Shown here in pieces: positions 22,121 to 34,668 of a stretch of DNA of 64,000 nucleotides; position 1 is the stretch's first letter; each line of letters opens with the position of its first letter. The stretch covers positions 36,624-100,623 of the IMG/VR virus record IMGVR_UViG_3300013233_000195; one strand, 5' to 3'. The notes beneath the pieces are model-generated. The model saw nothing but the letters and a program-made list of their open reading frames with translations. It was not told the origin of the DNA and searched no databases. Origin of the DNA: a virus. The position numbers were made by a program, and so were the translations under genes.

Positions 22121-22344
22121 TATACACCTTTGCTATTTTCTTCTTTATCAATCCAATTTCCAATGTCTTGCAAAAGGGACGCACCGACAACAACGCAACC
22201 CCAGTAGAAGAAAAAGAAGGAGAAGAAAACTCCCAGAAAAGCTAAGACACCAACTTTTGATAAAATCAGTGGTAGAGAATACTTCACCAGGCAGAAAGCA
22301 CTCACAAGAAATGTGAGTATCTTTGCAACAATCTTTCTGGTCAT
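22120..22344 (-). CDS. Membrane protein
   Basis: 74 aa. Two or three hydrophobic segments (VAKILTFLVSAFCLV, VLAFLGVFFSFFFFYWGCVVV). First gene after the promoter at 22396; its stop touches the start of tRNA-Glu. Unknown role. Confidence 0.5.
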   Translation of the reverse strand: MTRKIVAKILTFLVSAFCLVKYSLPLILSKVGVLAFLGVFFSFFFFYWGCVVVGASLLQDIGNWIDKEENSKGV

Positions 22345-22395
22345 CTCCGCCCCCCTTTACTATGTTGGGGGAACTGGATTCTCTCCAGTCCCCCC

Positions 22396-22424
22396 ATTCT
22401 ACCACATCCAGAGCAGGATGTCAA
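22396..22424 (-). promoter_or_regulatory. Sigma70 promoter
   Basis: Minus strand TTGACA (22419-22424), 17-bp spacer, TAGAAT (22396-22401) with TGG. It starts the unit 22344-20220, including tRNA-Glu, the metallopeptidase-like gene and the primase. Confidence 0.8.
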
Positions 22425-22431
22425 GGAAAAA

Positions 22432-23247: not shown

Positions 23248-23808
23248 TTATTCCCTCCATAAAAGTCGGGGATTGATTGCTACGTTGTTGTCCAAAACCT
23301 CGTAATGCAAATGGTAGCCCCTGGCGTTGCCGGTATTTCCAACAGTTCCAAGTATATCCCCTTGAACTACTTCTTTGCCCTTATAGACATTTGTTCTGTC
23401 TAGATGGGCGTATACTGTCGCAAGACCATTCTGGTGATCTACACAGACAGTATTTCCATATCCAGGGTAATAGCCTACCTCAGTCACAACTCCTGTTGCG
23501 GTGACTTTGATGGGAGTTCCCCATGGAGAAGCAAGATCAATCCCGGTATGATCTCTGGTTCTTAGTTTCCCAAACCCCGCACTTACTGGACCGGGAACAG
23601 GCGGAGAAAGGGGAAGATGAGAAATAGACTTTTCTATGTCATATTCCACCCCCTGCATTGACTCAGTATTTTCTTTGAGTTGGAAGACCTCCTGCTCTAG
23701 GATAGTTACCCTCTGTGAGAGATCCTCTATATGGGACATGAAAAACCCAGCCCCAACAAAAAGTCCCCATGCAATAGCACAGAGGATGATAGCAAAGGTG
23801 TATCGCAT
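23248..23808 (-). CDS. M23 metallopeptidase, membrane-anchored
   Basis: 186 aa from ATG 23808. One N-terminal transmembrane helix (residues 4-24), a coiled coil (26-60), a proline-rich linker and an M23 (lysostaphin/LytM) domain. Zinc ligands are H87 and D91 (HTGID) and H168 (HLH, 166-168), with H135 in YAHLD. It should cut peptide cross-links in peptidoglycan, in lysis or at infection. The gene has its own AUG just after tRNA-Arg(TCT). Confidence 0.85.
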   Translation of the reverse strand: MRYTFAIILCAIAWGLFVGAGFFMSHIEDLSQRVTILEQEVFQLKENTESMQGVEYDIEKSISHLPLSPPVPGPVSAGFGKLRTRDHTGIDLASPWGTPIKVTATGVVTEVGYYPGYGNTVCVDHQNGLATVYAHLDRTNVYKGKEVVQGDILGTVGNTGNARGYHLHYEVLDNNVAINPRLLWRE

Positions 23809-23829
23809 TGCTTTGCCCCCAATAAAAAG

Positions 23830-23905
23830 TGGAAGCCCCGGTGGGATTCGAACCCACGGCTTGCTCATTAGAAGTGAGCCACTCTGTCCACTGAGTTACG
23901 GGGCC
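23830..23905 (-). tRNA. tRNA-Arg (TCT)
   Basis: Cloverleaf with anticodon TCT in loop CTTCTAA, T arm GTGGGTTCGAATCCCAC, encoded CCA at 23830-23832; the first acceptor pair is G-U. Confidence 0.9.
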
Positions 23906-23910
23906 TCTTA

Positions 23911-24273
23911 TTATTCTGACTCTTCTGCCCAGAAGTGAAGGATTCCGCCACCATCGAGCAAGAAGAAGGCGTCTTGTCCTTGTTTGTATACCGCTGTAAC
24001 CTTTCGCACGGGATTAAACTCATAGGGCTCAAGTCCATCCATATCCGAAGCATTCAGAGACCAGTGAACTAGCTCATCGTCAACTTCTTCCCCACCAAAC
24101 ACTCGAAAAGTGTCTTGTGAGGCAAAGGACATCATAAGGGTCTTCTGAGAAACCCTGGAGATCATCTGGATTTCTTGATTGACAAAGTAACCCAGTCCCT
24201 GGGCATTGGAACTCTCCGGCCAATCTACAAGAGTTGATCCAGTATCCATCTGAAAGCCAATGTGAGCTAGCAT
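23911..24273 (-). CDS. Hypothetical protein between tRNAs
   Basis: 120 aa from ATG 24273, six bases after GGAG; an ATG two codons upstream is too close to the GGAG. Mixed beta strands with a final aromatic, acidic end (FWAEESE). No family recognised. Confidence 0.5.
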   Translation of the reverse strand: MLAHIGFQMDTGSTLVDWPESSNAQGLGYFVNQEIQMISRVSQKTLMMSFASQDTFRVFGGEEVDDELVHWSLNASDMDGLEPYEFNPVRKVTAVYKQGQDAFFLLDGGGILHFWAEESE

Positions 24274-24292
24274 TGTCATCTCCTTTTAGTAG

Positions 24293-24368
24293 TGGCACCC
24301 CCGGCAGGAATCAAACCCGCATCTTCACGGTTCGTAGCCGTGTGCCTTGTTCATTAGACCACAGGGGC
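24293..24368 (-). tRNA. tRNA-Arg (ACG)
   Basis: Acceptor GCCCCTG pairs with CGGGGGT; anticodon arm is CACGGCTACGAACCGTG, anticodon ACG; encoded CCA at 24293-24295. Needs A34-to-inosine editing to read CGU, CGC and CGA. Confidence 0.88.
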
Positions 24369-24369
24369 A

Positions 24370-24732
24370 TTATAGCTTTTTGTACTCTTCCAGCGTTAGG
24401 GCATTGCTGGCTCCACTAGGGAAATGCCCCTCCATCATACGCAAGAACTCGGGGAGAGTAGGAACCGGAATCTCTTTCCACAGTTCAACTCCTTGATGGA
24501 ATCCTAGCCTCCAAAACCGAACCTTGTTGCCTCTCCGTTGCCACCGATAGCAAGGTCTGCCAAAATAACGGACATCTTCAAACTCTCTGATAGCAACCCT
24601 CTCAGTAGGGTATTGGGGGTCTCTTCCCCCCCACCTTACAGAAGGCTTTTTTTGCTTCGCTTTTCTATCCGCTACCTTCTTTTGCTGTCTACCTCTTTTT
24701 TTAGCAGCTTCATAGGGAAGGCTAGAATTCAT
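24370..24732 (-). CDS. Basic hypothetical protein
   Basis: 120 aa, very basic first third (KKRGRQQKKVADRKAKQKK), then Trp/Arg-rich strands (PCYRWQRRGNKVRFWRLGF). AAGGAGAAG precedes the ATG. Possible nucleic-acid binding; unknown. Confidence 0.55.
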   Translation of the reverse strand: MNSSLPYEAAKKRGRQQKKVADRKAKQKKPSVRWGGRDPQYPTERVAIREFEDVRYFGRPCYRWQRRGNKVRFWRLGFHQGVELWKEIPVPTLPEFLRMMEGHFPSGASNALTLEEYKKL

Positions 24733-24747
24733 CTTCTTCTCCTTATG

Positions 24748-24826
24748 TGGCGCACGGTATGGGATTTGAACCCACGATCACTGGATTGACAGTCCAGGGC
24801 CTTAGACCAGACTAGACTAACCGTGC
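24748..24826 (-). tRNA. tRNA-Asp (GTC)
   Basis: Acceptor GCACGGT/ACCGTGC, anticodon GTC in loop CTGTCAA, encoded CCA at 24748-24750. The D arm looks slightly expanded. Its first 10 bases overlap the end of the 24817 gene. Confidence 0.85.
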
Positions 24827-25404
24827 ATATTCTTTTTCAATAGTCTGCGTGTACAGTTTACTTGCCACTTTGCCTCTGCCCACCTTACTGACTCTCTCCG
24901 CGCATAAGAGAGGATGTTTTCAGCAAGGTCATAACAGGCTTTCGTTGTGTTTATTGCAGTAATAAGAGTAATCTGCTCTACTGCATTGGGGAGCAAGCGA
25001 AATAGTAAGTTCCTGTAGTTTTTAAGTTCTTTATCTGTGATCTCCCCAGCAATCCACCGTCGCTTTACCTTTATGGCCTCTTTGATCCCTCTGGCCTCGT
25101 CTATTACAAGCTCAAAAGATCTAGCCCAAACAGCGCGTTCCATAAAACGACAGCCAAGCTCATGCAGCAGAGGAGCCGGAATCAGTTTTGGGCGTAGTAC
25201 CACCCAAAGCAGGTCTGCATACCATTCCTCATCTCGTCTATTTGTAGGAACTACCAAGATTCTCGGATTCAGTAGATCTTGTGCTGTCCAGAACTTTTTA
25301 CTCTTAAGCAGTTCCCGTACCCGCCTCCGTGGATATCTGTAACACGGTCTCCAAGAAATGATATCTTCAGCCGTTACACGAAAAGACTTTTCATCAAAAG
25401 ACAT
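24817..25404 (-). CDS. Conserved phage hypothetical protein
   Basis: 195 aa. The pattern DIISWRPCYRY ... TAQDLL ... DLLWVVLRPKLIP followed by a helical alanine/arginine-rich end is found in a recurrent phage hypothetical family. The stop codon lies inside the 5' end of tRNA-Asp. CAGGAGCC precedes the start. Function unknown. Confidence 0.6.
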   Translation of the reverse strand: MSFDEKSFRVTAEDIISWRPCYRYPRRRVRELLKSKKFWTAQDLLNPRILVVPTNRRDEEWYADLLWVVLRPKLIPAPLLHELGCRFMERAVWARSFELVIDEARGIKEAIKVKRRWIAGEITDKELKNYRNLLFRLLPNAVEQITLITAINTTKACYDLAENILSYARRESVRWAEAKWQVNCTRRLLKKNMHG

Positions 25405-25405
25405 T

Positions 25406-26179
25406 TTAGGCTCCTGAATCTTCTTGTTGGGGCCAGTTAAGATATGCTACATGAGTAGTTCTTCGTCTTACGCCTCCAGTTCTGATCCCCTTTGCCATTG
25501 TGGGCGCAAGGGAAATCCAATCTAGATTCCAGAGGCTGTCTGCATTATCTCCATAAGTGAAGATTACTGGAATACCTTTCTCCCCACAGGTTGAAATGAG
25601 TTTGTCAACTTGACTCTTAATATGACTATACTTATTGCCTCTGTTCTTACTTGAGTAGCCCCTAGTTCCATGATAAGGAGGATCTAGAAATACAAGATCT
25701 CCTGGTTGTGGATCATAGGTGCCAGCCGAGCCACGAACGACAATAAGATCCTTTAACCGTGGAAGTGCTCGAATGGTTTTCTCAACTGGAAGATTGTGCT
25801 GTGGGTAAATCTTCCAAGAGGAAAGCTGACCAACTACGAAACTTGTAACATTAACACGGATATAAGCCTGCTCCCCAGGAGAGAGATTTGGAATCTCTCG
25901 AACATCGGTCTTGGGTTTGGCCTGTTTAACTATTTTATCCAATTCCCAAAGTCTCTTGGGAGTTATATGAGCTAAGGCCAGCCACAGTTGAACAACTGGT
26001 ATGGATGTATCTAACCCAAAGCCCGGTAAACCAGAGTTCAACCAATATGCTCCAGAGCCAAGAAAAGGCTCTACTACTATTCTAGTGCCTGATGGCGGAT
26101 CTCGGAGAAGTTTAAGAACTCTCGTTTTCGATCCTTGATATCTGAACAGTTTGAGAGGCTTCCCATCAGGTAGCTTCAT
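25406..26179 (-). CDS. Dam-like DNA adenine methyltransferase
   Basis: 257 aa from ATG 26179. D12-class N6-adenine methylase motifs: KLFRYQGSKTRVLKLL near the N-terminus, SAM-binding VEPFLGSGAYWLN, and catalytic DPPY in LVFLDPPYHGTRGYS. Overall length fits Dam family enzymes, though the recognition site cannot be predicted. Probably protects phage DNA or alters gene timing. Confidence 0.85.
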   Translation of the reverse strand: MKLPDGKPLKLFRYQGSKTRVLKLLRDPPSGTRIVVEPFLGSGAYWLNSGLPGFGLDTSIPVVQLWLALAHITPKRLWELDKIVKQAKPKTDVREIPNLSPGEQAYIRVNVTSFVVGQLSSWKIYPQHNLPVEKTIRALPRLKDLIVVRGSAGTYDPQPGDLVFLDPPYHGTRGYSSKNRGNKYSHIKSQVDKLISTCGEKGIPVIFTYGDNADSLWNLDWISLAPTMAKGIRTGGVRRRTTHVAYLNWPQQEDSGA

Positions 26180-26382
26180 TACTTGGCCTCTGAAGTTACA
26201 GCAGACTCCTTCGCCCACTCACTTTCTAGGATCTCTTCAATGTTGTCAATTGCTAGAGCAAACGTATCTATCATGGCAGCGTCCTCAAGAGAGTATTGGG
26301 CATGATCCTCAAAAAAGCCATACACTTCTTGCAAATTCCCTAAAGCCCTGGACAGACGAAAACGGATGTTTGAAGGCATCAT
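26179..26382 (-). CDS. Small helical protein
   Basis: 67 aa, MMPSNIRFRLSRALGNLQEV onward, all helical. Its stop overlaps the methylase start (shared base 26179), so the two are coupled. AGGGGAAAGC precedes ATG 26382. Confidence 0.5.
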   Translation of the reverse strand: MMPSNIRFRLSRALGNLQEVYGFFEDHAQYSLEDAAMIDTFALAIDNIEEILESEWAKESAVTSEAK

Positions 26383-26391
26383 AGCTTTCCC

Positions 26392-26583
26392 CTACTTTGT
26401 TAGAGTACGAGCAGGCATTACTCGGTTACGACGGCGAGTAGCCCTCCACAACTCTCTAGCAGCCCTCTCAGTCATTCCATTGAACTTCATCAAATGATGG
26501 ACCTTATGCTTCTCAAGAACGCCCTCAGTCTTGTACTTCTCCCGAGAAGGCTTCTTGTTACTCCCTCTTCCCTTCTTAGCCAT
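26392..26583 (-). CDS. Small basic protein
   Basis: 63 aa with a basic N-terminus (KKGRGSNKKPSREK) and an HTH-like segment (MKFNGMTERAARELW). AGGAGAAAGCC precedes the start. Possibly DNA- or RNA-binding. Confidence 0.5.
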   Translation of the reverse strand: MAKKGRGSNKKPSREKYKTEGVLEKHKVHHLMKFNGMTERAARELWRATRRRNRVMPARTLTK

Positions 26584-26602
26584 TGGCTTTCTCCTAAAAG
26601 GT

Positions 26603-26681
26603 TGGTGGAGGCGGTGGGATTCGAACCCACATCTTCAACGGCTTAAAAGGCCGGTACTCTGCGCAATTGAGTTACGCCTCC
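26603..26681 (-). tRNA. tRNA-Lys (TTT)
   Basis: Acceptor GGAGGCG/CGCCTCC, anticodon loop CTTTTAA, T arm GTGGGTTCGAATCCCAC, encoded CCA at 26603-26605. Confidence 0.92.
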
Positions 26682-26687
26682 AATTTT

Positions 26688-26763
26688 TGGAACCCCCAAC
26701 AGGATTTGAACCTGTATCCTCTGCTTAGGAGGCAGGAGCACTATCCCCTTGTGCTATGGGGGC
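26688..26763 (-). tRNA. tRNA-Arg (CCT)
   Basis: Acceptor GCCCCCA, anticodon arm CTGCCTCCTAAGCAG (anticodon CCT), encoded CCA at 26688-26690. Confidence 0.9.
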
Positions 26764-26791
26764 TTGAGCCTATTGAGCCGTTCGTGCGCCC

Positions 26792-26820
26792 ATTATACCA
26801 CGACGGGAGGGGGGAGTCAA
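26792..26820 (-). promoter_or_regulatory. Sigma70 promoter for tRNA/methylase unit
   Basis: Minus strand TTGACT (26815-26820), 17-bp spacer, TATAAT (26792-26797), extended -10 TGG. TTGACGCTTTTTTG lies upstream, as at 20161. It is placed to transcribe 26763-22432. Confidence 0.85.
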
Positions 26821-26855
26821 GCAAAAAAGCGTCAACCCCCCTCCCGGTTGTGACT

Positions 26856-26932
26856 TGGTGGCCTCCCTCGGACTCGAACCGAGATCTTTTCGGTTAAGGG
26901 CCGAAATCTTTGCGCAATTAAGTTAGAAGGCC
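26856..26932 (-). tRNA. tRNA-Lys (CTT)
   Basis: Acceptor GGCCTTC/GGAGGCC with wobble, anticodon loop CCCTTAA, T arm CTCGGTTCGAGTCCGAG, encoded CCA at 26856-26858. Confidence 0.9.
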
Positions 26933-26938
26933 AAAATA

Positions 26939-27026
26939 TGGCGGAAGGTGAGAGGTTCGAACTCTCGCTGGTGTTACCCAGGCTACAGTTTAGCAAACTG
27001 ACGCCTTTCCACTCGGCCAACCTTCC
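26939..27026 (-). tRNA. tRNA-Ser (GCT)
   Basis: Class II tRNA with a long variable arm; anticodon arm CAGTTTGCTAAACTG, acceptor GGAAGGT/ACCTTCC, encoded CCA at 26939-26941. Confidence 0.92.
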
Positions 27027-27030
27027 AAGA

Positions 27031-27118
27031 TGGCGGAAGAGGAGGGATTCGAACCCCCACAGGTGTTACCCCGACTACTGGGTTCAAGCCAGCTACATTA
27101 CCGTTCTGTCACTCTTCC
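27031..27118 (-). tRNA. tRNA-Ser (TGA)
   Basis: Class II tRNA, long variable arm; anticodon arm CTGGCTTGAACCCAG, acceptor GGAAGAG/CTCTTCC, encoded CCA at 27031-27033. Confidence 0.9.
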
Positions 27119-27206
27119 TGGCGGTAGAGGTAGGATTCGAACCTACGGAGCTATTACACTCACCTATTTTCGAGATAGGCGCATTAATCCTCTCTGCCAC
27201 TCTACC
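27119..27206 (-). tRNA. tRNA-Ser (CGA)
   Basis: Class II tRNA; anticodon arm CCTATCTCGAAAATAGG, acceptor GGTAGAG/CTCTACC, encoded CCA at 27119-27121. It directly abuts tRNA-Ser(TGA), and its first 5 bases overlap the end of the 27202 gene. Confidence 0.9.
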
Positions 27207-27957
27207 TAATACTTTCCATCCAAGTTTCTAAATCTACTTCCCAGTCTTCCTTTTGACTAAACAAAAGATTAGCATTTGGAGCCTGATTCTTGAGAAAGGG
27301 TGTATTCTTCCAAAGAATTAAGCCTTTCTTCTTTAATGCCGCCGCCGCATGATACAGGCCAGAGTCATTTGCTATGATGCCTTGGCAACCAGCGATCTCC
27401 GCAAGACAAGCTCGTATATTTCCAATGTGTGTTGGGGCAATAATATCATTGTCCAACATCCCATCTTGAGCCCGCCTAAGATCGTTGAGGCTGCCCACAA
27501 AATGAACAGCTAATCCTTTACGACGACAGAGTTCTGCTGCCTTTAGGTAAATCTTAGGACCAGGATCTTTGGAGAGTACATAGTTTACTCTCTCCAAGCC
27601 AGAACCACGAACGAAAACGATGTAATCTCGTTCTTCGATTGGCTCTACACAATCTACATAGGTCCATGGAGGATTCTCCTTATCAGGAGGACCAAAAGTC
27701 TCCCAAAGATACCTCCAATCTTCTATGTCCGTTCTTCGTGTGATGCTATCAGAAGTAAACTTCAATTCTCCTTCTGGCTCATCAATTCGGCGGATAAAAG
27801 GACAGTCCAAAAAGCACAACTTTACATATTGCTTCGTAAAGAGTAATGGGACTGGTTCACCAATTACCCGCGATAATCCTTGAATTGCTGGAGTACAGTT
27901 AATGAAGTTGCCTAATGCCCAACTTTTATGTTGGAGGACATAGAAATCACTGTCCAT
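27202..27957 (-). CDS. Glycosyltransferase family 9-like protein
   Basis: 251 aa from ATG 27957 (GGAGAGAGCTA upstream). GT-B fold features of ADP-heptose:LPS heptosyltransferase-like GT9 enzymes: GNFINCTPAIQGLSR near the N-terminus, a second Rossmann half with LAVHFVGSLNDLRRA, and the donor-site region CQGIIANDSGLYHAAAAL. It would transfer a sugar from a nucleotide donor. It forms an overlapping trio with a sulfotransferase and a methyltransferase, suggesting modification of a cell-surface or virion glycan. Confidence 0.75.
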   Translation of the reverse strand: MDSDFYVLQHKSWALGNFINCTPAIQGLSRVIGEPVPLLFTKQYVKLCFLDCPFIRRIDEPEGELKFTSDSITRRTDIEDWRYLWETFGPPDKENPPWTYVDCVEPIEERDYIVFVRGSGLERVNYVLSKDPGPKIYLKAAELCRRKGLAVHFVGSLNDLRRAQDGMLDNDIIAPTHIGNIRACLAEIAGCQGIIANDSGLYHAAAALKKKGLILWKNTPFLKNQAPNANLLFSQKEDWEVDLETWMESIR

Positions 27958-28654
27958 TAGCTCTCTCCTGGAGTTTGTGATAGAGTTCAAAGGTAGCAGT
28001 TTTAGCCATTCGATTTCTCGTTCTATACCATCTTGGATTGATGAAGTCTCTATCTAACTCTGCTCCAGCAAACTCCTGCAAATGATCTAGTTGTGAAGAT
28101 CTAGACAGTAGCTCCTTGTACTCTACAAAGCAGTATCTCTCGGGTTCTTCATCTGCCTCAACAAGCAAAAAAGCATATAGCTCGTTCCAGAACCTCTCAA
28201 GCTGCTGCCTGCTCGGTCCCGCTGCCCACTTTACCGTGTTAGTGATTGCTTCTGGAGGATAGCGAAAGACCACCACAAATCCAACTTTAACTCCTTTGCT
28301 CTGAAAAACCTGATCCCATGCTCTATGCGTTGCTGAACTTCTTGGATCTTTGTAGGCAAAGGGGGGGTGACACCACTTCTCCATCTCTTGTGTATGGGAC
28401 TTTGAGATTTTCTCTATGGGGGTAAACCCCTTTACCATTTGAGATCTCCAGGCTACATCCTTATGGCCTCCTAGCAGAGCCCCATTCAAGGTTACAAAGT
28501 CCAAGTCCTCATACAGTCCTTGGGGATTTCTTTGTGTAGGTGGTATTAGGTTTTCTCCTTGGAACCAACTCTTTCTAAAGAGCCCCGAGGTCATAGATGT
28601 GCCACTACCATCGTAGCCCAGAATCAAAAGGGACTTTTGTTGTTTATCCTTCAC
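27947..28654 (-). CDS. Sulfotransferase-like protein
   Basis: 235 aa. The N-terminal PAPS-binding loop is LLILGYDGSGTSMTSGLF (5'-phosphosulfate motif GSGTS). The 3'-phosphate-type region follows in VVVFRYPPEAI, and FAYKDPRSSATHRAW fits the family. It would transfer sulfate from PAPS to a carbohydrate or other acceptor. It overlaps both neighbours by about 11 bp, so the three proteins are made together. Phage-encoded sulfotransferases are uncommon. The substrate is unknown. Confidence 0.75.
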   Translation of the reverse strand: MKDKQQKSLLILGYDGSGTSMTSGLFRKSWFQGENLIPPTQRNPQGLYEDLDFVTLNGALLGGHKDVAWRSQMVKGFTPIEKISKSHTQEMEKWCHPPFAYKDPRSSATHRAWDQVFQSKGVKVGFVVVFRYPPEAITNTVKWAAGPSRQQLERFWNELYAFLLVEADEEPERYCFVEYKELLSRSSQLDHLQEFAGAELDRDFINPRWYRTRNRMAKTATFELYHKLQERANGQ

Positions 28655-29258
28655 CAGTCTTTATTCTCCACAGCATCGCTGAGTTAGTGCTTCTTCCTTC
28701 CTTGGGAACATGGGTTCTATGAGCAAAGGCATAAACCTCAAAGTTTTCCTCTACTAGTCTATCATAGTCATCTAAAGATCGTCCAACGCAGTTAGCCGAT
28801 CTTGCTCTTGTGTCAGTACACTCATAGATGAAGAGCCAAAGTGGGTGACTTTGTGCCATCCAAGCAAGGATCTTGGAAACACCTTCATCACTATTATGCT
28901 GCAAAACATTGGCTGTGAAGACCATATCCACATCCCAAAAGGGGGCTGGTGGAACCGTTGTCACAATCTCTCTTGGATAGTCTTTTGGAAACTCTGAGTA
29001 GTCCACCACATCTACACCTTGATAGTGCGCAGGGTGGAATAAAGAGCACATTCGACCAGTACCACAGCCAAAGTCTAAGACTTGCAGCTTTCGATTCCGA
29101 ACCTTCTTAGGGAGCATATCTCGGATAAACTCCCTCTTTGTCTGAACTACTTTGTGCTGCTCTTCTATAGAGTCTGCACAGTGTCCAACAGACTGTTCAC
29201 CAAGTTTAGTGTATTGTTGTTGCCAATACTCTACAACTTCCTTAGGTGATATACCCAT
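28644..29258 (-). CDS. Class I SAM-dependent methyltransferase
   Basis: 204 aa from ATG 29258. Motif I is LQVLDFGCGTGRM, followed by a Rossmann pattern (YQGVDVVDYS, VDMVFTANVLQH). This fits small-molecule or glycan methyltransferases. It is the first gene of the glycan-modifying trio and lies directly before the tmRNA. Substrate unknown. Confidence 0.8.
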   Translation of the reverse strand: MGISPKEVVEYWQQQYTKLGEQSVGHCADSIEEQHKVVQTKREFIRDMLPKKVRNRKLQVLDFGCGTGRMCSLFHPAHYQGVDVVDYSEFPKDYPREIVTTVPPAPFWDVDMVFTANVLQHNSDEGVSKILAWMAQSHPLWLFIYECTDTRARSANCVGRSLDDYDRLVEENFEVYAFAHRTHVPKEGRSTNSAMLWRIKTGEG

Positions 29259-29271
29259 CTTCTCTCCCATA

Positions 29272-29588
29272 TGGTGGAGGTGGCGGGTATCGAGCCCGCG
29301 TCCATCAGCGAATCAACATTAGACTCTACATGCTTTTGCTTGGATTTCTAAGCTCCAAGCAGCTTGGCACCGGAGTTAGTTAAACAGCAACCTCGGAAAA
29401 CTGTGGTTCCGGTTCATGCGACACTCTTTCTCCCTCGAAACCGGGAAGAGAGGAGAAGAATGCTCCAACTTCAGTGAGTTGAAGGGTTACAATAGCTTCG
29501 TCAGTTATTGTGTTTGTTTTGGTCTTTTACGCAGCACCCTGCGGCATGCACTAATGATTACTTCCCTGTGTCGAATCCATTCACCCCC
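29272..29588 (-). ncRNA. ssrA: tmRNA (ssrA), phage-encoded
   Basis: 317 nt. The 5' end GGGGGTGAATGGATTCGAC and the 3' end GGACGCGGGCTCGATACCCG then CACCTCCACCA are typical tmRNA ends; 5' GGGGGTG pairs with 3' CACCTCC and CCA is encoded (29272-29274). Conserved GTGCATGCCG, a pk1-type hairpin (CGCAG GGTG CTGCG) and AAGCATGTAG are present. After AATAACT a frame opens at 29502 with GAC GAA GCT and stays open for 40 codons to TAA at 29380-29382. It ends in SEVAV, a plausible protease-tag tail. Usual tags are about 10 residues. tmRNA rescues stalled ribosomes and tags their products. Confidence 0.93.
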
Positions 29589-29784
29589 GTTGTTCTAAGA
29601 ATTTCCGTTCCTTTTCCGCTAGAATTCTGTGATGTTCGTCAAACCACTTATCTCGTAGCTCTTGTGAGATTGCGCCCATAGAGTACCAGTATTCAACTGT
29701 CCCAATGGACATCTTTTTGAGTAGTTTCCAGTCACAGGCTGGACAACGGCCTAGCCAATGACCCTGTGAACCATCACAATCCAT
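29581..29784 (-). CDS. Small protein with CxxC motif
   Basis: 67 aa from ATG 29784 (TTGGAGG upstream). CPACDW and a helical, charged second half (DKWFDEHHRILAEKERKF). The stop codon lies in the first bases of the tmRNA. Unknown function. Confidence 0.5.
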   Translation of the reverse strand: MDCDGSQGHWLGRCPACDWKLLKKMSIGTVEYWYSMGAISQELRDKWFDEHHRILAEKERKFLEQRG

Positions 29785-29798
29785 AATACCTCCAAGTT

Positions 29799-29886
29799 TG
29801 GTGCCGGAAGCGGGATTCGAACCCGCACGCCCCAATGGGACAGAGGATTTTAAGTCCCCCCGGTCTACCTATTCCACCATTCCGGC
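29799..29886 (-). tRNA. tRNA-Leu (TAA)
   Basis: Class II tRNA with long variable arm; acceptor GCCGGAA/TTCCGGC, anticodon loop CTTAAAA, encoded CCA at 29799-29801. Confidence 0.9.
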
Positions 29887-29889
29887 ACT

Positions 29890-29963
29890 TGGCTGGGCTG
29901 AGAGGAATCGAACCTCTGAAGGGTGGTTCAGAGCCACCCATTTTACCACTAAATTACAGCCCA
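29890..29963 (-). tRNA. tRNA-Gln (CTG)
   Basis: Anticodon arm GGTGGCTCTGAACCACC (CTG), T arm GAGGTTCGATTCCTC, encoded CCA at 29890-29892. Confidence 0.9.
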
Positions 29964-29970
29964 ACATAAT

Positions 29971-30046
29971 TGGCAGGTCGCGTAGGATTCGAACCCACAT
30001 CTTCTGGTTTTGGAGACCAGCATCTTCCCGGTTAGACCAGCGACCT
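29971..30046 (-). tRNA. tRNA-Trp (CCA)
   Basis: Acceptor AGGTCGC/GCGACCT, anticodon arm CTGGTCTCCAAAACCAG (CCA), encoded CCA tail at 29971-29973. Confidence 0.9.
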
Positions 30047-30048
30047 AT

Positions 30049-30135
30049 TGGTGCCCCAAGAGGGACTCGAACCCTCACGCCACTAGGACAACAGTTTCTA
30101 AGACTGTCGCGTCTGCCTTATTCCGCCATCGGGGC
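30049..30135 (-). tRNA. tRNA-Leu (TAG)
   Basis: Class II tRNA; anticodon arm CAGTCTTAGAAACTG, acceptor GCCCCGA, encoded CCA at 30049-30051. Its first 18 bases are also the 3' end of the 30118 gene. Confidence 0.9.
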
Positions 30136-30333
30136 ATCTAGTTCTACAAGTTTCTTGGTTTTCTCCTCAGGGCATTCTTCTACTCTGAATCGAGTTTTGC
30201 AGTGTAAGCATGTTGCAAACGTGGTATGCTCATGGGGCCACCTGGTATGGACGAGCTTGAAATACTTCCCCCAGCAGTAGGGACATAGTATGGCGCGGCC
30301 CCCAGGATCATTGGTAATAACGTCCACAGCCAT
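30118..30333 (-). CDS. Zinc-ribbon protein A
   Basis: 71 aa, AAGGAGATAAAGTAA before the ATG. CPYC and CLHC (residues 17-45) form a four-Cys zinc ribbon. It is a tandem paralogue of the next gene (shared spacing and CxxCxxxF pattern). Its last 18 bp, including the stop, lie inside tRNA-Leu(TAG). Confidence 0.55.
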   Translation of the reverse strand: MAVDVITNDPGGRAILCPYCWGKYFKLVHTRWPHEHTTFATCLHCKTRFRVEECPEEKTKKLVELDAPMAE

Positions 30334-30549
30334 TTACTTTATCTCCTTAGTAGGAGGTACAATGCAAGTTAGTCCTCTAAGTTCTTTCTCATAGTCATAA
30401 TCTAATCTGAACTTTGCCTTACACTTTATACAAGTAACTTGAAAGGCTCCATTGATCTTTCTCTTTGAGGCTTTGAACCTGTCATTATCACAGAAGCGGC
30501 AGAGGAGAGGAAGCCCCTCTGCTCCATTAGTAAGAGTTAGAATGTACAA
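30334..30549 (-). CDS. Zinc-ribbon protein B
   Basis: 71 aa with a TTG start at 30549, six bases after AAAGGAG. CRFC and CIKCKAKFRL form a zinc ribbon like that of the adjacent gene. Unknown function. Confidence 0.55.
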   Translation of the reverse strand: MYILTLTNGAEGLPLLCRFCDNDRFKASKRKINGAFQVTCIKCKAKFRLDYDYEKELRGLTCIVPPTKEIK

Positions 30550-30566
30550 CTTCTACTCCTTTTAGT

Positions 30567-30649
30567 TGGTGCCCAAGGTGGGATTCGAACCCACACGCCC
30601 GAAGGCGCGGTTTTTGAGACCGCTGTGTATGCCATTCCACCACTTGGGC
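30567..30649 (-). tRNA. tRNA-Leu (CAA)
   Basis: Class II tRNA; acceptor GCCCAAG, anticodon arm GCGGTCTCAAAAACCGC (CAA), encoded CCA at 30567-30569. Confidence 0.9.
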
Positions 30650-30656
30650 ACTTGTA

Positions 30657-30860
30657 AATACATCCCTGTTCTCTCCCCCCGCAGACAGAGATAGAGGGAG
30701 AAACCTCCTGCACCACGCAGCGGTTCAGGCTGTCTGTCCTATGTGAACCGCCTCCTCGGGACATGTTGTGGGGAGGGGCAGAACGGGGTCTCCAAAGTCC
30801 CCTTTTTGCTGAAGTCCGAGTTGGAGAAGGGACAACAGCCTTTTCTAACCCCTACCCCGT
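30657..30860 (-). ncRNA. Gene-free segment, possible structured RNA
   Basis: About 200 bp between two tRNAs with no convincing ORF. The minus strand has GCGGTTCA/TGAACCGC arms (8 bp) and two interleaved complementary pairs (GTCCC/GGGAC and TCTCCAA/TTGGAGA) near 30789-30833. No known RNA family was recognised; it may be a tRNA remnant or a new small RNA. Confidence 0.25.
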
Positions 30861-30864
30861 CTGT

Positions 30865-30940
30865 TGGTGCCGTGTGCGGGGTTTGAACCCGCGTCGCAGG
30901 GTTGAGAACCCTACATCCTATCCGACTAGACGAACACGGC
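30865..30940 (-). tRNA. tRNA-Glu (CTC)
   Basis: Acceptor GCCGTGT/ACACGGC, anticodon arm AGGGTTCTCAACCCT (CTC), encoded CCA at 30865-30867. A second Glu isoacceptor beside Glu(TTC). Confidence 0.9.
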
Positions 30941-30941
30941 A

Positions 30942-31017
30942 TGGTGGCTGTGGGAGGAATCGAACCCCCATTTTCTGGGTGTAAACCAGAAGCCTTAGGC
31001 CATTAGACTACACAGCC
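30942..31017 (-). tRNA. tRNA-Val (TAC)
   Basis: Acceptor GGCTGTG/CACAGCC, anticodon loop TTTACAC, T arm GGGGGTTCGATTCCTCC, encoded CCA at 30942-30944. Confidence 0.9.
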
Positions 31018-31022
31018 ATAAT

Positions 31023-31100
31023 TGGTAGTGCCGGTAGGATTTGAACCCACGACCAATGGCATATAAGGCCACCACTCTGACCAGACTGAGTTACGGCACC
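31023..31100 (-). tRNA. tRNA-Ile (TAT)
   Basis: Anticodon loop CTTATAT, anticodon TAT, reading AUA directly; most bacteria read AUA with a modified CAT tRNA instead. Acceptor GGTGCCG with a first G-U pair; encoded CCA at 31023-31025. Confidence 0.88.
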
Positions 31101-31108
31101 AGGTATTG

Positions 31109-31196
31109 TGGCGGTAGGTGTGAGATTCGAACTCACGGCGCTGTTACACGCTCACGCTTTCCAGACGTGTGCATTAGTCCACTCTGCCAACCTACC
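31109..31196 (-). tRNA. tRNA-Ser (GGA)
   Basis: Class II tRNA with long variable arm; anticodon arm CACGTCTGGAAAGCGTG (GGA), acceptor GGTAGGT/ACCTACC, encoded CCA at 31109-31111. Confidence 0.9.
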
Positions 31197-31201
31197 GAAA
31201 A

Positions 31202-31279
31202 TGGTCTCCAAGGCGGGATTCGAACCCGCGACCCCCCGGTCCCAAGCCGGGCGCTCTGGCCATTCTGAGCTACTCGGAG
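31202..31279 (-). tRNA. tRNA-Pro (TGG)
   Basis: Acceptor CTCCGAG/CTTGGAG, anticodon arm CCGGCTTGGGACCGG (TGG), T arm GCGGGTTCGAATCCCGC, encoded CCA at 31202-31204. Confidence 0.9.
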
Positions 31280-31280
31280 A

Positions 31281-31427
31281 TTATCTCTTCTTCTTCCTGC
31301 GTCTTGTTGCCGCAGCCTTCTTGGCCGCTTTCTTCCTCTTCTTCTTTGTTTCTTTTGCCCAACGCTTTGCAATGTCGGGATGAAACTTCCATAGAAAGCG
31401 CCTTTGCTTATCGCTCTTGAATGGCAA
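31281..31427 (-). CDS. Small basic protein (PFKSxKQRRFL family)
   Basis: 48 aa from a TTG at 31427, eight bases after GGAGG. The opening PFKSDKQRRFLWKFHPDIAK matches a family of very small phage proteins that usually begin MPFKSxKQR. The tail is an extreme Lys/Ala/Arg run. Probably binds nucleic acid; role unknown. Confidence 0.6.
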   Translation of the reverse strand: MPFKSDKQRRFLWKFHPDIAKRWAKETKKKRKKAAKKAAATRRRKKKR

Positions 31428-31440
31428 CGCAACCGCCTCC

Positions 31441-31914
31441 TTATGACTTCTTGGCCTTTCCTCGCACACGCTGTAACTTGATGCGCCCACAATCAATCTC
31501 AAAATGGCGGGCAACAGCAGTTACATATAGTTTCTTTGCCTTAGCTTCGCGCATAAGATTAACTCGCCTCTTACGAGAAGATCCCCAAAAGATGTCATTG
31601 TCGCCATCTTCTTTGTCATGTTCTTTGTAGAATAGCAAAGAAACCAGACCACCGGGCATAACTCGTATACTATGCTCTTTACTATGCCAAGCGGCCAAGT
31701 GCTTATAGTCACTTGTCCAATATGATTCTGCTGGTACAAAGCGACTAAGCACTGTGCAGATCACTGCTAAGGCTTCTCGCAAAGAAGCTCTATATCGAAG
31801 GCCCTCCTCATCCTCAATAATAGCTCTCCGAGTTGGAAGAGACCAATTAAGCCCTTGTTCAATCTTCAGAGCGAGTCTTTTGGCTTCGGCTGAATCTATG
31901 TTGAGTTTAGCCAC
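31441..31914 (-). CDS. Hypothetical protein
   Basis: 157 aa from GTG 31914 (AAAGGA eight bases upstream); a longer form from a GTG at 31950 is possible. Helical N-terminus, an aromatic middle (ESYWTSDYKHLAAW), and a basic end. No family recognised. Confidence 0.5.
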   Translation of the reverse strand: MAKLNIDSAEAKRLALKIEQGLNWSLPTRRAIIEDEEGLRYRASLREALAVICTVLSRFVPAESYWTSDYKHLAAWHSKEHSIRVMPGGLVSLLFYKEHDKEDGDNDIFWGSSRKRRVNLMREAKAKKLYVTAVARHFEIDCGRIKLQRVRGKAKKS

Positions 31915-31941
31915 CTTAGTGTTCCTTTGTAAAGTCCGTTG

Positions 31942-31996
31942 GGAGAGCACAGTCGCACTAACGCCAAGAACGCTTAAAAGGGTAACTGTGCTCTCC
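31942..31996. repeat. 12-bp inverted repeat between gene and tRNA
   Basis: GGAGAGCACAGT (31942-31953) and its exact complement (31985-31996) are 31 bp apart, between tRNA-Met and the 31914 gene start. It could form a processing hairpin or operator. Confidence 0.5.
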
Positions 31997-32002
31997 CGCC
32001 AA

Positions 32003-32076
32003 TGGTGGCTGTGGGTGGACTCAAACCACCTTAGTCGGCTTATGAAACCAATGCCCTATCTATAGACGACACAGCC
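32003..32076 (-). tRNA. tRNA-Met (CAT), elongator or Ile-lysidine type
   Basis: Acceptor GGCTGTG/CACAGCC, anticodon loop TTCATAA, encoded CCA at 32003-32005. Which CAT function it serves cannot be told from sequence; a TAT-Ile tRNA makes the Ile role less needed. Confidence 0.85.
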
Positions 32077-32078
32077 TT

Positions 32079-32155
32079 TGGGAGCGGGAGTGGGAGTCGA
32101 ACCCACGATCTCTGGCACATGAAACCAGCGAGGACGGCCTCTCCTCCATCCCGCA
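32079..32155 (-). tRNA. tRNA-Met (CAT), initiator-like
   Basis: Anticodon loop TTCATGT. The first acceptor position is unpaired (T1 opposite T72), as expected for an initiator, but the GGG/CCC anticodon-stem signature of bacterial initiators is absent. Encoded CCA at 32079-32081. Confidence 0.75.
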
Positions 32156-32158
32156 ACT

Positions 32159-32359
32159 CTATTGTTCTAAAACCCGAACATTGAAGCCCAAGCCAACCTT
32201 CATTCCAAGAATGCTTTTCTTAGAAGCCTCAGCGTAGCTTGTGAACTTTTGAGCGTCCTCCTTATCATGTACAAACATTCTACCATCCCAAAAAGCTATT
32301 GGAAACCAACCTATCTTCTTAGGGTAGTTATAATGCTTTTCCAGTACGATATAGAACAC
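32159..32359 (-). CDS. Small hypothetical protein
   Basis: 66 aa from GTG 32359 after GGGGG. Aromatic and basic (YNYPKKIGWFPIAFWDG). It is the first gene of the unit started at 32427, followed by two Met tRNAs. Unknown. Confidence 0.5.
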   Translation of the reverse strand: MFYIVLEKHYNYPKKIGWFPIAFWDGRMFVHDKEDAQKFTSYAEASKKSILGMKVGLGFNVRVLEQ

Positions 32360-32398
32360 TCAGTCACCCCCGAGGGGAGAGCCCCCACCGACGCGAGC

Positions 32399-32427
32399 AT
32401 TATACCACGCCGCCGCTCCGGTGTCAA
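32399..32427 (-). promoter_or_regulatory. Consensus sigma70 promoter
   Basis: Minus strand TTGACA (32422-32427), 17-bp spacer, TATAAT (32399-32404), extended -10 TGG. It feeds the tRNA/tmRNA block 32359-26856. Confidence 0.88.
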
Positions 32428-32434
32428 GGGAAAA

Positions 32435-32698
32435 TCACAGGCCGCCGAGGGTGCGCAGCTCCTCGTCGATCTCGTGGAGTTCTTTTACCGCCCATTGGCG
32501 ATCAAGGAGAACAAGACCAATTTCAAAGAGTTCAGAGCGAGTCATCGGCCTTTCTCCAGCCTCTTTGCGCTTTTCATTCTCCTCTTTCAACTTCTGAACC
32601 AACCGGAACATGACCGGAGCAAATGGCTGGTGTATATACACCGAGTATTGTCCATAGAACATGTCCTTGTTGGACTTTAGCCGGATCTTTCTAGTCAC
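32435..32698 (-). CDS. Small helical protein
   Basis: 87 aa from GTG 32698, five bases after GGAGG; a TTG four codons upstream is the alternative. A helical, charged protein (VQKLKEENEKRKEAGERPM) with a possible ribbon-helix-helix-like segment (MTRSELFEIGLVLL). Role unknown. Confidence 0.5.
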   Translation of the reverse strand: MTRKIRLKSNKDMFYGQYSVYIHQPFAPVMFRLVQKLKEENEKRKEAGERPMTRSELFEIGLVLLDRQWAVKELHEIDEELRTLGGL

Positions 32699-32711
32699 CG
32701 TATCCTCCAAG

Positions 32712-32785
32712 TGGAGCGGGCTATGGGATTCGAACCCATATGAACGGGGTGGAAACCCGACATGTTGCCATTACATCAAGCCCGC
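32712..32785 (-). tRNA. tRNA-Gly (TCC)
   Basis: Acceptor GCGGGCT with U73 discriminator, anticodon loop TTTCCAC, T arm ATGGGTTCGAATCCCAT, encoded CCA at 32712-32714. Confidence 0.9.
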
Positions 32786-32793
32786 AATGATTG

Positions 32794-32895
32794 AGAAGCA
32801 TTGTAGTAGTGGGATTCGAACCCACACAACCACCAACTACATCTTTTGGGTTGCAACTTGGTTTCCCTTCCAACTTGGGATACTACGATACTTCT
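32794..32895 (-). ncRNA. Aberrant tRNA-like structure
   Basis: A tRNA-like fold with a perfect T arm (GTGGGTTCGAATCCCAC), a D arm (TCCC/GGGA), a variable region, and an anticodon-position stem ACCAA/TTGGT. The loop of that stem is 21 nt instead of 7. The acceptor stem extends to 15 bp (AGAAG...GTAGTA with TACTAC...CTTCT; one mismatch, one wobble), and no CCA is encoded, unlike every other tRNA here. Either a decayed tRNA with a 14-nt insertion or a functional tRNA mimic. Confidence 0.5.
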
Positions 32896-32899
32896 CCGT

Positions 32900-32973
32900 T
32901 GGAGCAGCAGATGGGAATCGAACCCATGTACCTCCGTTAGTAACGGAGGATTCTACCACTGAATTACTACTGC
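32900..32973 (-). tRNA. tRNA with Gly-type body and ACT anticodon
   Basis: Perfect cloverleaf: acceptor GCAGTAG/CTGCTGC, loop TTACTAA giving anticodon ACT, encoded CCA at 32900-32902. The short variable region, G1-C72, C2-G71 and U73 are Gly-type features, but the anticodon would read AGU (Ser). Charging identity is therefore unclear. Confidence 0.75.
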
Positions 32974-33000
32974 GAATATGTTAAGCCAAAGTGTGTGAGT

Positions 33001-33102
33001 TTACAAATACTCCTCAGGATCACCCTTACAGCTAGAGTCAAAGGAATCAGGAGAACAGAAAAGTTCATACAGAAACAGAAAGAAGCCCGAAGAAAGAAAC
33101 AT
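33001..33102 (-). CDS. Tiny hydrophobic peptide
   Basis: 33 aa (MFLSSGFFLFLYELFCSP, then a polar tail) with TAGGAGGG upstream of ATG 33102. One hydrophobic N-terminal segment could insert in the membrane. It is the only candidate gene in this inter-tRNA gap. Confidence 0.4.
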   Translation of the reverse strand: MFLSSGFFLFLYELFCSPDSFDSSCKGDPEEYL

Positions 33103-33131
33103 TGGAAACCCTCCTATCTTTTTAGAGACAT

Positions 33132-33208
33132 TGGGGCGACGGGTGGGACTTGAACCCACTCAGTCCGGGTCACAGCCGGAGGGACTAACCAGTTATCCTA
33201 CCGCCGCC
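33132..33208 (-). tRNA. tRNA-His (GTG)
   Basis: Anticodon arm CCGGCTGTGACCCGG (GTG), C73 discriminator and an extra 5' G, as usual for His; encoded CCA at 33132-33134. Confidence 0.9.
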
Positions 33209-33224
33209 ATTATTCTGTGGAGAG

Positions 33225-33298
33225 CGCCTTCTCTGTTAGACCATCGGTGAACGATCAACCCCACCTTACGGGATTTGAACCCACATCTCTCTCCGTGC
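33225..33298 (-). pseudogene. tRNA remnant
   Basis: GTGGGTTCAAATCCCG (a T arm) is present near 33268-33284, and a D-arm-like GGTCTAACAGAGAAGGC lies near 33226-33244. The two pieces are in the wrong order to form one cloverleaf. Likely debris of former tRNA genes in the array. Confidence 0.4.
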
Positions 33299-33373
33299 TG
33301 GCTGCTAGGGTGGGATTTGAACCCACACTTTGACGATTAACAGTCGCCAGCTCTACCATTAAGCTACCTAGCA
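33299..33373 (-). tRNA. tRNA-Asn (GTT)
   Basis: Anticodon loop CTGTTAA, acceptor TGCTAGG/CCTAGCA, T arm GTGGGTTCAAATCCCAC, encoded CCA at 33299-33301. Confidence 0.9.
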
Positions 33374-33377
33374 ATTT

Positions 33378-33453
33378 TGGTGGACGAGGGAAGATTTGGA
33401 CTTCCGACCACCGACGTATCAGATCGGCACTCTGACCCCTGAGTTACTCGTCC
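33378..33453 (-). tRNA. tRNA-Ile (GAT)
   Basis: Acceptor GGACGAG/CTCGTCC, anticodon loop CTGATAC. The T loop reads TCCAAAT, so position 55 is C instead of the near-universal U. Encoded CCA at 33378-33380. Its 5' end overlaps the 33444 gene by 10 bp. Confidence 0.85.
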
Positions 33454-33653
33454 ACATTTTTACTATAGTCTTCAACAACTCGAATGGAAACCTTCACAAC
33501 TCCCTTTCGAGTGAGGGGAGGAGGAATGTCTCCCTTTTCTCGAAAGATCCTCAAACTAAGTCCAGGAGTACGATAGAAGAATCCAAACTCTTGCTTAGAA
33601 ACGTATCCTACTGAGTCAAGAATTTCCGATGTTGTGTTGTCCTGATCTATCAT
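33444..33653 (-). CDS. Small hypothetical protein
   Basis: 69 aa from ATG 33653 (GGAGATAAGA upstream). A short acidic N-terminus, then a basic beta-rich part (LTRKGVVKVSIRVV). Residues 14-45 could be an HTH of the MerR or excisionase type (VGYVSKQEFGFFYRTPG). Its stop lies in tRNA-Ile(GAT). Confidence 0.5.
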   Translation of the reverse strand: MIDQDNTTSEILDSVGYVSKQEFGFFYRTPGLSLRIFREKGDIPPPLTRKGVVKVSIRVVEDYSKNVDE

Positions 33654-33669
33654 TCTTATCTCCTCAAAG

Positions 33670-33746
33670 TGGAAGGGGTGGTCGGATTCGAACCGACGAT
33701 TGCGAGGTTCAAAGCCTCGTGTCTTTGTCCACTTGACGACACCCCT
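33670..33746 (-). tRNA. tRNA-Gln (TTG)
   Basis: Acceptor AGGGGTG/CACCCCT, anticodon arm CGAGGCTTTGAACCTCG (TTG), encoded CCA at 33670-33672. Confidence 0.92.
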
Positions 33747-33749
33747 GTT

Positions 33750-33825
33750 TGGTGGACGGGGCGGGATTCGAACCCGCATTTCACGGCTTGCAAGGCCGGT
33801 GTGTTCCCATTACCACTACTCGCCC
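33750..33825 (-). tRNA. tRNA-Ala (TGC)
   Basis: Anticodon loop CTTGCAA, T arm GCGGGTTCGAATCCCGC, acceptor GGGCGAG with a G-U pair, encoded CCA at 33750-33752. Confidence 0.88.
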
Positions 33826-33829
33826 AAAA

Positions 33830-33904
33830 TGGTGACTTCCCTGGGACTTGAACCCAGCCTGCGGGGGCTTCAACCCCGTGCTCTACCAGATGAGCTAGGA
33901 AGTC
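33830..33904 (-). tRNA. tRNA-Phe (GAA)
   Basis: Acceptor GACTTCC/GGAAGTC, anticodon loop TTGAAGC, T arm CTGGGTTCAAGTCCCAG, encoded CCA at 33830-33832. Confidence 0.92.
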
Positions 33905-33912
33905 AGTTTTTC

Positions 33913-33987
33913 TGGAGCCCTGCCTCGGATTCGAACCGAGATCTCCCACCTTACAAGAGTGGTATCATGCCATTAGACCAACAGGGC
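33913..33987 (-). tRNA. tRNA-Thr (TGT)
   Basis: Acceptor GCCCTGT, anticodon loop CTTGTAA, T arm CTCGGTTCGAATCCGAG, encoded CCA at 33913-33915. Confidence 0.92.
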
Positions 33988-33991
33988 AAAC

Positions 33992-34067
33992 TGGAGCTAC
34001 CGGCGTGATTCGAACACGCATCTCCTGTCTTACGAGAACAGTATCTTACCCATTAGACTACGGTAGC
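33992..34067 (-). tRNA. tRNA-Thr (CGT)
   Basis: Acceptor GCTACCG/CGGTAGC, anticodon arm CTGTTCTCGTAAGACAG (CGT), encoded CCA at 33992-33994. Confidence 0.92.
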
Positions 34068-34068
34068 A

Positions 34069-34143
34069 TGGAGCCGAAGAGCGGACTCGAACCGCTATCT
34101 CTTCCGTACCAAGGAAGGCTCTTGCCCTTAGAGCTACTCCGGC
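34069..34143 (-). tRNA. tRNA-Thr (GGT)
   Basis: Acceptor GCCGGAG, anticodon arm CTTCCTTGGTACGGAAG (GGT), T arm GCGGTTCGAGTCCGC, encoded CCA at 34069-34071. Third Thr isoacceptor in a row. Confidence 0.92.
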
Positions 34144-34144
34144 A

Positions 34145-34219
34145 TGGAGTCCGTGGGAGGATTCGAACCTCCGCATAGGTGGGTTGCAGCCACCCGCTTT
34201 GCCACTTAGCTACACGGAC
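34145..34219 (-). tRNA. tRNA-Cys (GCA)
   Basis: Acceptor GTCCGTG/CACGGAC with U73, anticodon arm GGTGGCTGCAACCCACC (GCA), encoded CCA at 34145-34147. Confidence 0.92.
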
Positions 34220-34555
34220 CTATGTAATCGTATAAACTGCAAACTCAATCAGAAGCTCAAAGACCTTGGCCTCCACAAACTCTGGGAGATAGGGAATGTC
34301 AATGAGACGATTCACTGCCTCCACAGCAACCTTCTTCTTATCCGCGCTAGTCCAGTTGCCCACTTCATCGGCAACTCGCTCAACCACATCGACTACTCCA
34401 AGGACAGCGGAAAAGATCACGCGCATGGAGTCAAGACTCCAACCGGACATACCGTGCAATTGAGTATTAACAGTAGACAACTCCTCAAGAATCAAGTCTA
34501 CCGCCGTATCTGGAGTAACTCCTTGGTAATCGGGAAGATCATTTGCTTTGACCAT
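34220..34555 (-). CDS. Helical hypothetical protein
   Basis: 111 aa, GGAGGCGTTAG before the ATG. Long amphipathic helices (AVLGVVDVVERVADEVG). Located between tRNA-Tyr and tRNA-Cys; the stop is flush with tRNA-Cys. Unknown. Confidence 0.5.
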   Translation of the reverse strand: MVKANDLPDYQGVTPDTAVDLILEELSTVNTQLHGMSGWSLDSMRVIFSAVLGVVDVVERVADEVGNWTSADKKKVAVEAVNRLIDIPYLPEFVEAKVFELLIEFAVYTIT

Positions 34556-34577
34556 CTAACGCCTCCTTGTTAGAAAA

Positions 34578-34668
34578 TGGTGGCAGGGGAAGGATTTGAA
34601 CCTTCGATGTTCAGCACATGGGCACCTGTTTTACAGACAGGCTCGTTCAACCGCTCCGACACCCTGCC
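34578..34668 (-). tRNA. tRNA-Tyr (GTA)
   Basis: Class II tRNA with long variable arm; anticodon arm CCTGTCTGTAAAACAGG, acceptor GGCAGGG/CCCTGCC, encoded CCA at 34578-34580. Confidence 0.92.

Follow-up and report, generated by a model that had tools for sequence, protein, structure and literature searches.

A phage tmRNA gene with an unusually long, coding-like tag frame and a reduced pseudoknot domain

The tmRNA is the RNA that frees stalled ribosomes, and in the usual picture of ssrA the peptide that it adds is a short C-terminal degron. The window analyzed here, a stretch of 64,000 nucleotides from a virus known from a single metagenomic contig, raises the question of what such an RNA does when its tag frame is open for 40 codons, and whether a frame of that length is a tag at all. 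A preliminary description had proposed a phage tmRNA at this locus, and cmscan bears this out, with the proposed coordinates being exact: on the minus strand, 29588..29272 matches Rfam RF00023 over its full length (model 1-374) with 115.8 bits and an E value of 1.5e-44, the gathering score being 47, and a scan of the whole 100,623-base virus record returned the same match. The locus is a complete one-piece tmRNA (ssrA) gene (Table 1). ARAGORN found 35 tRNAs and did not report the tmRNA at 29588..29272; since it misses this gene, long-tag tmRNAs may be under-counted.

Table 1. Features of the tmRNA locus and its surroundings (positions in the window)
Feature	Position	Strand	Basis
tmRNA (ssrA) gene, one-piece, 317 nt, CCA encoded	29272..29588	(-)	RF00023, full model
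Acceptor stem 5' strand GGGGGUG, pairs with CACCUCC (29276-29282)	29582..29588	(-)	7-bp helix, pairing probability 1.00 (fold)
Long connector helix (H2) 5' strand, pairs with 29306-29333 in segments	29544..29568	(-)	Fold, segment probability 0.61-0.99
PK1 hairpin CGCAG GGUG CUGCG	29530..29543	(-)	Fold and inspection
Resume context UAACU directly 5' of the resume codon, conserved U-5 and A-4 kept	29503..29507	(-)	Rfam alignment; TAACT followed by G also in phage tmRNAs L031 and L034
Tag frame, 40 codons, DEAIVTLQLTEVGAFFSSLPGFEGERVSHEPEPQFSEVAV (plus the alanine carried by the tmRNA)	29383..29502	(-)	Translation
Hairpin CUUCAACU/AGUUGGAG in the frame, aligned by Rfam to helix 5, no in-frame stop inside	29463..29484	(-)	Rfam and fold
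Hairpin CAUUCUUCUCC.../...GGAGAAAGAGUG in the frame, aligned by Rfam to the PK2 stem	29422..29462	(-)	Rfam and fold
Helix ACCGGA/UCCGGU, 29413-29408 with 29374-29369, 33-nt loop holding the stop codon	29369..29413	(-)	Perfect 6 bp, pairing probability 0.94
Tag stop codon UAA	29380..29382	(-)	Translation
PK4-like pseudoknot: AAGC/GCUU (4 bp), loop UGCUUGGA pairs with UCCAAGCA (8 bp)	29337..29365	(-)	8-bp stem probability 0.98 (fold); 4-bp stem by inspection
T arm GCGGG CUCGAUA CCCGC	29283..29299	(-)	Rfam alignment; helix probability 0.99 (fold)
Upstream small ORF, 67 aa from ATG, stop codon overlapping the first 8 nt of the tmRNA	29581..29784	(-)	ORF analysis
Downstream CDS, weak methyltransferase match below the Pfam cut-off, start 1 nt after the CCA end	28644..29270	(-)	
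tRNA array, 35 genes, all 20 amino acids, around the tmRNA	22046..34668	(-)	ARAGORN

Sequence and predicted fold together give a tRNA-like domain with a 7-bp acceptor stem, a T arm, a CCA end and no anticodon arm. The acceptor stem, as read from the sequence, includes a G3.U wobble and is accompanied by a discriminator A, both of which are alanine identity elements (a G.U at the third pair marks alanine tRNAs). Three details are less regular: the T-loop (29288-29294) carries C54 and A60 where U54, which is near-universal, and U60 are usual; the D-arm segment is 1-2 nt short; and the pseudoknot pairing of PK1 with the downstream GACC comes to at most 3 bp by folding and inspection, so that PK1 is minimal or doubtful. 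These features might lower the activity of the RNA. PK2 and PK3 were not recognizable in this tmRNA, and of the typical four pseudoknots only PK4 is clear. Since the number of pseudoknots varies among tmRNAs (PMC3985003), this shortfall leaves the membership of the RNA in the tmRNA family intact. The tRNA-like half, H2 and PK4 are intact. Like E. coli ssrA, the standard form of RF00023, the RNA combines a tRNA-like domain bearing G3.U and CCA with a connector helix, a resume context, a PK4-like pseudoknot and a stop codon within a helix loop; unlike the standard one-piece tmRNA, which has 363 nt and a tag of about 10 codons, it has 317 nt and a tag of 40. Overall, it is a tmRNA of the standard form in which the tag is unusually long and coding-like and the pseudoknot domain is reduced.

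The reading of the long tag depends on where translation resumes. The covariance model places the resume codon at GAC (29502), whose G aligns with the first base of GCA, the usual resume codon, and from there the frame stays open for 40 codons until TAA at 29382-29380, as the preliminary description had read it. The short frame by which the same description would have been refuted (TKLL followed by a stop, from ACG one base later) is not the one that the model selects, and that refutation fails. The register also agrees with two unrelated phage tmRNAs: L031, read by eye, has AATAACT followed by GGC AAT ACA TAC CGC ATG GCT GCT TAA, and L034 has TTTTTAACT followed by GGC AAC GAT ... TTA GCT GCT TAA. 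Aspartate resume codons are rare but known (PMC1168896), and the tag begins with D-E, like the common (N)DE tag start. A less favorable point is that a predicted hairpin of 6 bp encloses the resume codon in its loop. An assembly error or another resume frame could still hide a short true tag, namely TKLL, DEAL or DELL after one lost base, or ..NPSTH, each followed by a stop, and such short frames do adjoin the long one; moreover, the UGA that ends ..NPSTH lies in the loop of the first hairpin, which is the helix 5 loop of the Rfam alignment. We nevertheless regard this explanation as highly improbable, given the register set by the covariance model and by the TAACT followed by G in L031 and L034, the lack of a hydrophobic ALAA-like end in all of the short peptides, and the scores of those frames (-15 and -29 bits, where the long frame reaches +13; stops included). 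A canonical tag hidden behind a one-base indel was likewise rejected: inserting or deleting one base anywhere in the first 60 nt of the frame does not give a short tag of the canonical ..ALAA type.

Known tmRNAs carry the stop codon in the helix 5 loop (PMC1168896), whereas here it is found outside the hairpin assigned to helix 5 by Rfam, about 80 nt later, in the loop of another well-predicted 6-bp helix (29369..29413). This later helix is a probable functional equivalent of helix 5, and pseudoknots 2 and 3 appear to have been given up. Either helix 5 would have moved together with the stop, or the frame would have grown through helix 5 and PK2 to end in the former PK3. In both scenarios the ribosome would have to open two or three hairpins during tag synthesis, and the cost would fall on pseudoknots that are dispensable in vitro, as the last three of the four are in E. 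coli tmRNA (PMC3985003). With its message domain extended across the pseudoknot region next to an intact tRNA-like half, the RNA provides a natural test of how much a tmRNA can dispense with.

Length alone is weak evidence that the frame is used, because 40 open codons arise by chance from this composition in 14-17% of cases (0.144 with base shuffles, 0.171 with a first-order Markov model). We therefore turn to codon usage, using a codon model trained on 43 large ORFs of the same record. The whole tag scores +10.1 bits of log-odds, while in-frame gene stretches of equal length average 6.0; stop-free dinucleotide shuffles of the tag average -2.0 and stop-free off-frame stretches of the phage's own genes -5.7, and in each of these two controls a fraction of 0.0003 reaches the score of the tag. 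The signal extends past the length of an ordinary tag, since codons 13-40 score +5.6, reached by 0.017 of the shuffles and 0.012 of the off-frame stretches, and codons 17-40 score +4.1 (0.012 and 0.029, respectively). The GC content by codon position in the tag frame is 0.70/0.40/0.38. Among synonymous recodings, the fraction that folds at least as stably as the natural sequence is 0.155 and 0.043 for the whole RNA and 0.47 and 0.33 for the frame region; random recodings thus fold nearly as well, which argues for a mainly coding frame region and against a folded RNA element that lacks stops by accident. To judge from codon usage, translation would cover the long tag in full and not just its first part. 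The case for coding, as opposed to a pseudoknot region open by chance, is good but not final, because it comes from one 40-codon sequence without relatives.

These results bear directly on the idea that the RNA is decayed or run-on, i.e., that a mutation removed the original stop in helix 5 and the former pseudoknots are read through by chance, the extra residues being meaningless. Besides the chance figures given above, the alignment of the first two in-frame hairpins to helix 5 and PK2 speaks for such an origin, and C54 of the T-loop and the weak PK1 could be signs of decay. On the other hand, codons 13-40 carry the phage codon bias to an extent that 1.2-1.7% of stop-free controls reach, the late stop is enclosed by a helix, and the tRNA-like half, H2 and PK4 are intact; hence, we consider decay unlikely.

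How unusual is the tag among its kind? In the sample compared, which consisted of about 22 other phage tmRNAs (phages of Stenotrophomonas, Xanthomonas, Alcaligenes, Pseudomonas, Bordetella, Acinetobacter and Streptomyces, Bacillus phage G, and IMG/VR contigs), a tag of 8-16 residues is the rule. The four exceptions have 25-33, namely 25 in LinStu and in the permuted form on contig L033, 28 in Boopy and 33 in Tunturi_4, so that the 40-residue tag is the longest of this sample and its description as unusually long holds. Among tmRNAs, the most frequent tag length is 10 residues (PMC11915505, on a 97,179-sequence database). The preliminary description had mentioned long tags in actinophages, and we found them: LinStu (Bixzunavirus, Bxz1 group) has the 25-aa tag ATDTDATVTDAEIEAFFAEEAAALV and Gordonia phage Boopy one of 28 aa, in RNAs of 435 and 402 nt. 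Like the window tmRNA, both are phage-encoded, one-piece and located inside a large tRNA array, and their tags are long, acidic/hydrophobic and without an ALAA end (theirs being ..AALV). Kinship with Bxz1 on account of the VT..AFF pattern, by contrast, found no support, as an alignment to the Bxz1 tag no worse than that of the window tag was reached by 11% of shuffled tags (p ~0.11), and to the Boopy tag by 41% (0.41), whereas the Bxz1 and Boopy tags are clearly related to each other (shuffle p 0.00025). Homology of the window tag to the Bxz1 type (AEIEAF..EAAALV) was hence rejected. Nor does it resemble another protein of the same phage, the top score of 37 lying within those of shuffles (33-43).

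Two further comparisons concern long tags of other origin. The tmRNA of Tunturiibacter phage Tunturi_4 also carries a long tag, of 33 aa (ANTVTSTIRNVASVRTGFFRSAEPITNRYAVAA), but differs in its permuted two-piece form, in the AVAA end of the tag and in the adjoining RF-1-domain release factor gene. This stand-alone gene (L015:218-565) places two ribosome-rescue genes together. In Mycoplasma, an extended ssrA tag, much longer than usual, serves Lon proteolysis (Ge and Karzai, 2009), with a reading by Lon (Gur and Sauer, 2008), as cited in PMC3985003 and PMC11986505; it is bacterial and ends in AFA, an end that the window tag (EVAV) does not have, and we claim no sequence likeness. The long phage tags do not form one family and seem to have arisen more than once, judging from a small sample of phage tmRNAs that was selected through similarity searches.

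Searches for relatives of the locus itself gave little. The 3-kb region had no megablast match in phages, a distant blastn search with the tmRNA matched only about 33 nt of the ends of other tmRNAs, and the neighboring proteins (helicase, methyltransferase-like) and the capsid had no match in IMG/VR contigs. Pattern searches for the tmRNA in IMG/VR contigs returned other phage tmRNAs, prophage-edge copies and chance matches and no relative, and the single match of a pattern in genome contigs was due to chance. A tblastn search with the tag was uninformative, as the exact tag of LinStu, a phage represented in the collection, likewise returned nothing. Among 50,697 phage records, the capsid had a single match, to a Vibrio phage (23.7% identity), which does not bear out a link to actinophages. 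The phage is far from known ones, and the lack of relatives holds for the collections searched, from which records very near to this genome may be absent.

Given these observations, we consider it probable that the locus encodes an active, alanine-charged phage tmRNA that works with host SmpB and adds a degron-like A+40 tag, its stop codon having been moved past helix 5. For its expression and charging, as well as for tagging and the fate of the tagged proteins, we infer the following course. The gene context points to the mode of expression: the overlap of the upstream ORF with the tmRNA suggests co-transcription, and an ORF that ends inside the tmRNA together with a next gene that starts one base after CCA suggests processing from a longer transcript. 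The RNA, charged with alanine, would enter host ribosomes stalled on broken messages together with host SmpB, which would have to serve because neither an SmpB gene nor an RF-1-domain gene was found in the (possibly incomplete) record. After the alanine has been transferred, translation would resume at GAC and add 40 residues, giving an A+40 tag with the tail ..EVAV from a frame lengthened by moving its stop past helix 5 into the PK2/PK3 space, where a helix encloses it. The tag would most likely still mark proteins for destruction, as a long hydrophobic degron that proteases, Lon or ClpXP for example, can engage; both the hydrophobic middle LQLTEVGAFFSSLPGF and the small and hydrophobic EVAV end of the tag would fit a degron, while the C-terminal AV in place of AA may weaken recognition by ClpX. 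In infection, the tmRNA would keep ribosomes running alongside the 35 phage tRNAs and RtcB, and the combination of tRNA array, RtcB ligase and tmRNA would fit a phage that sustains translation while host messages and tRNAs are cut.

A function of its own for the long tag, as raised in the preliminary description, is possible, although none of the present results points to a separate one. It is conceivable, if rather doubtful, that selection has made the 40-residue extension a peptide module of the phage that does more than ordinary ssrA degradation, redirecting stalled products to a chosen protease or partner, or shielding them. If so, the phage would be reprogramming the ribosome-rescue pathway of its host, and tags of 25-40 aa in several unrelated phage tmRNAs would represent a recurrent phage strategy. 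Taken together with the four other phage tmRNAs whose tags have 25-33 residues, a coding-like tag of 40 residues suggests that the use of tmRNA by phages may differ from that by their hosts. Very unlikely, in our view, is that the RNA serves mainly as an inhibitor or competitor of host tmRNA/SmpB with an incidental tag. TLD-only tmRNA-like genes do exist in phages (DS6A, PMC4131195; L027, L032), and that of mycobacteriophage DS6A is reported to inhibit host tmRNA; however, a decoy would need none of what the window RNA retains, namely a full message part, the connector, PK4 and a coding-like frame.

Several minor observations were made along the way. The DS6A-like genes L027:10069-10156 and L032:4831-4918 have 88 nt, consist of the tRNA-like domain only (RF00023, 68.4 bits) and lie inside a tRNA array. 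A permuted phage tmRNA at L033:6267-6656 (-) has a 25-residue tag, ANDNIIAFPIVGNDFGIEAELAMAA (read by eye), which resembles two ordinary tags in tandem. The phage tmRNA at L031:4300-4865 (-), on a contig of 156 kb, is split near the T arm by a group I intron (Rfam Intron_gpI, 94.3 bits), and its tag is apparently GNTYRMAA. In the record studied here, the tRNA set at 22046-34668 is almost self-sufficient for decoding. The same record also encodes the RtcB RNA ligase (L036:13216-14472), a family A DNA polymerase fused to a uracil-DNA glycosylase domain (L035:4040-6709) and, outside the window, a class II ribonucleotide reductase (L036:1727-5065) with an inserted LAGLIDADG domain, probably an intein.
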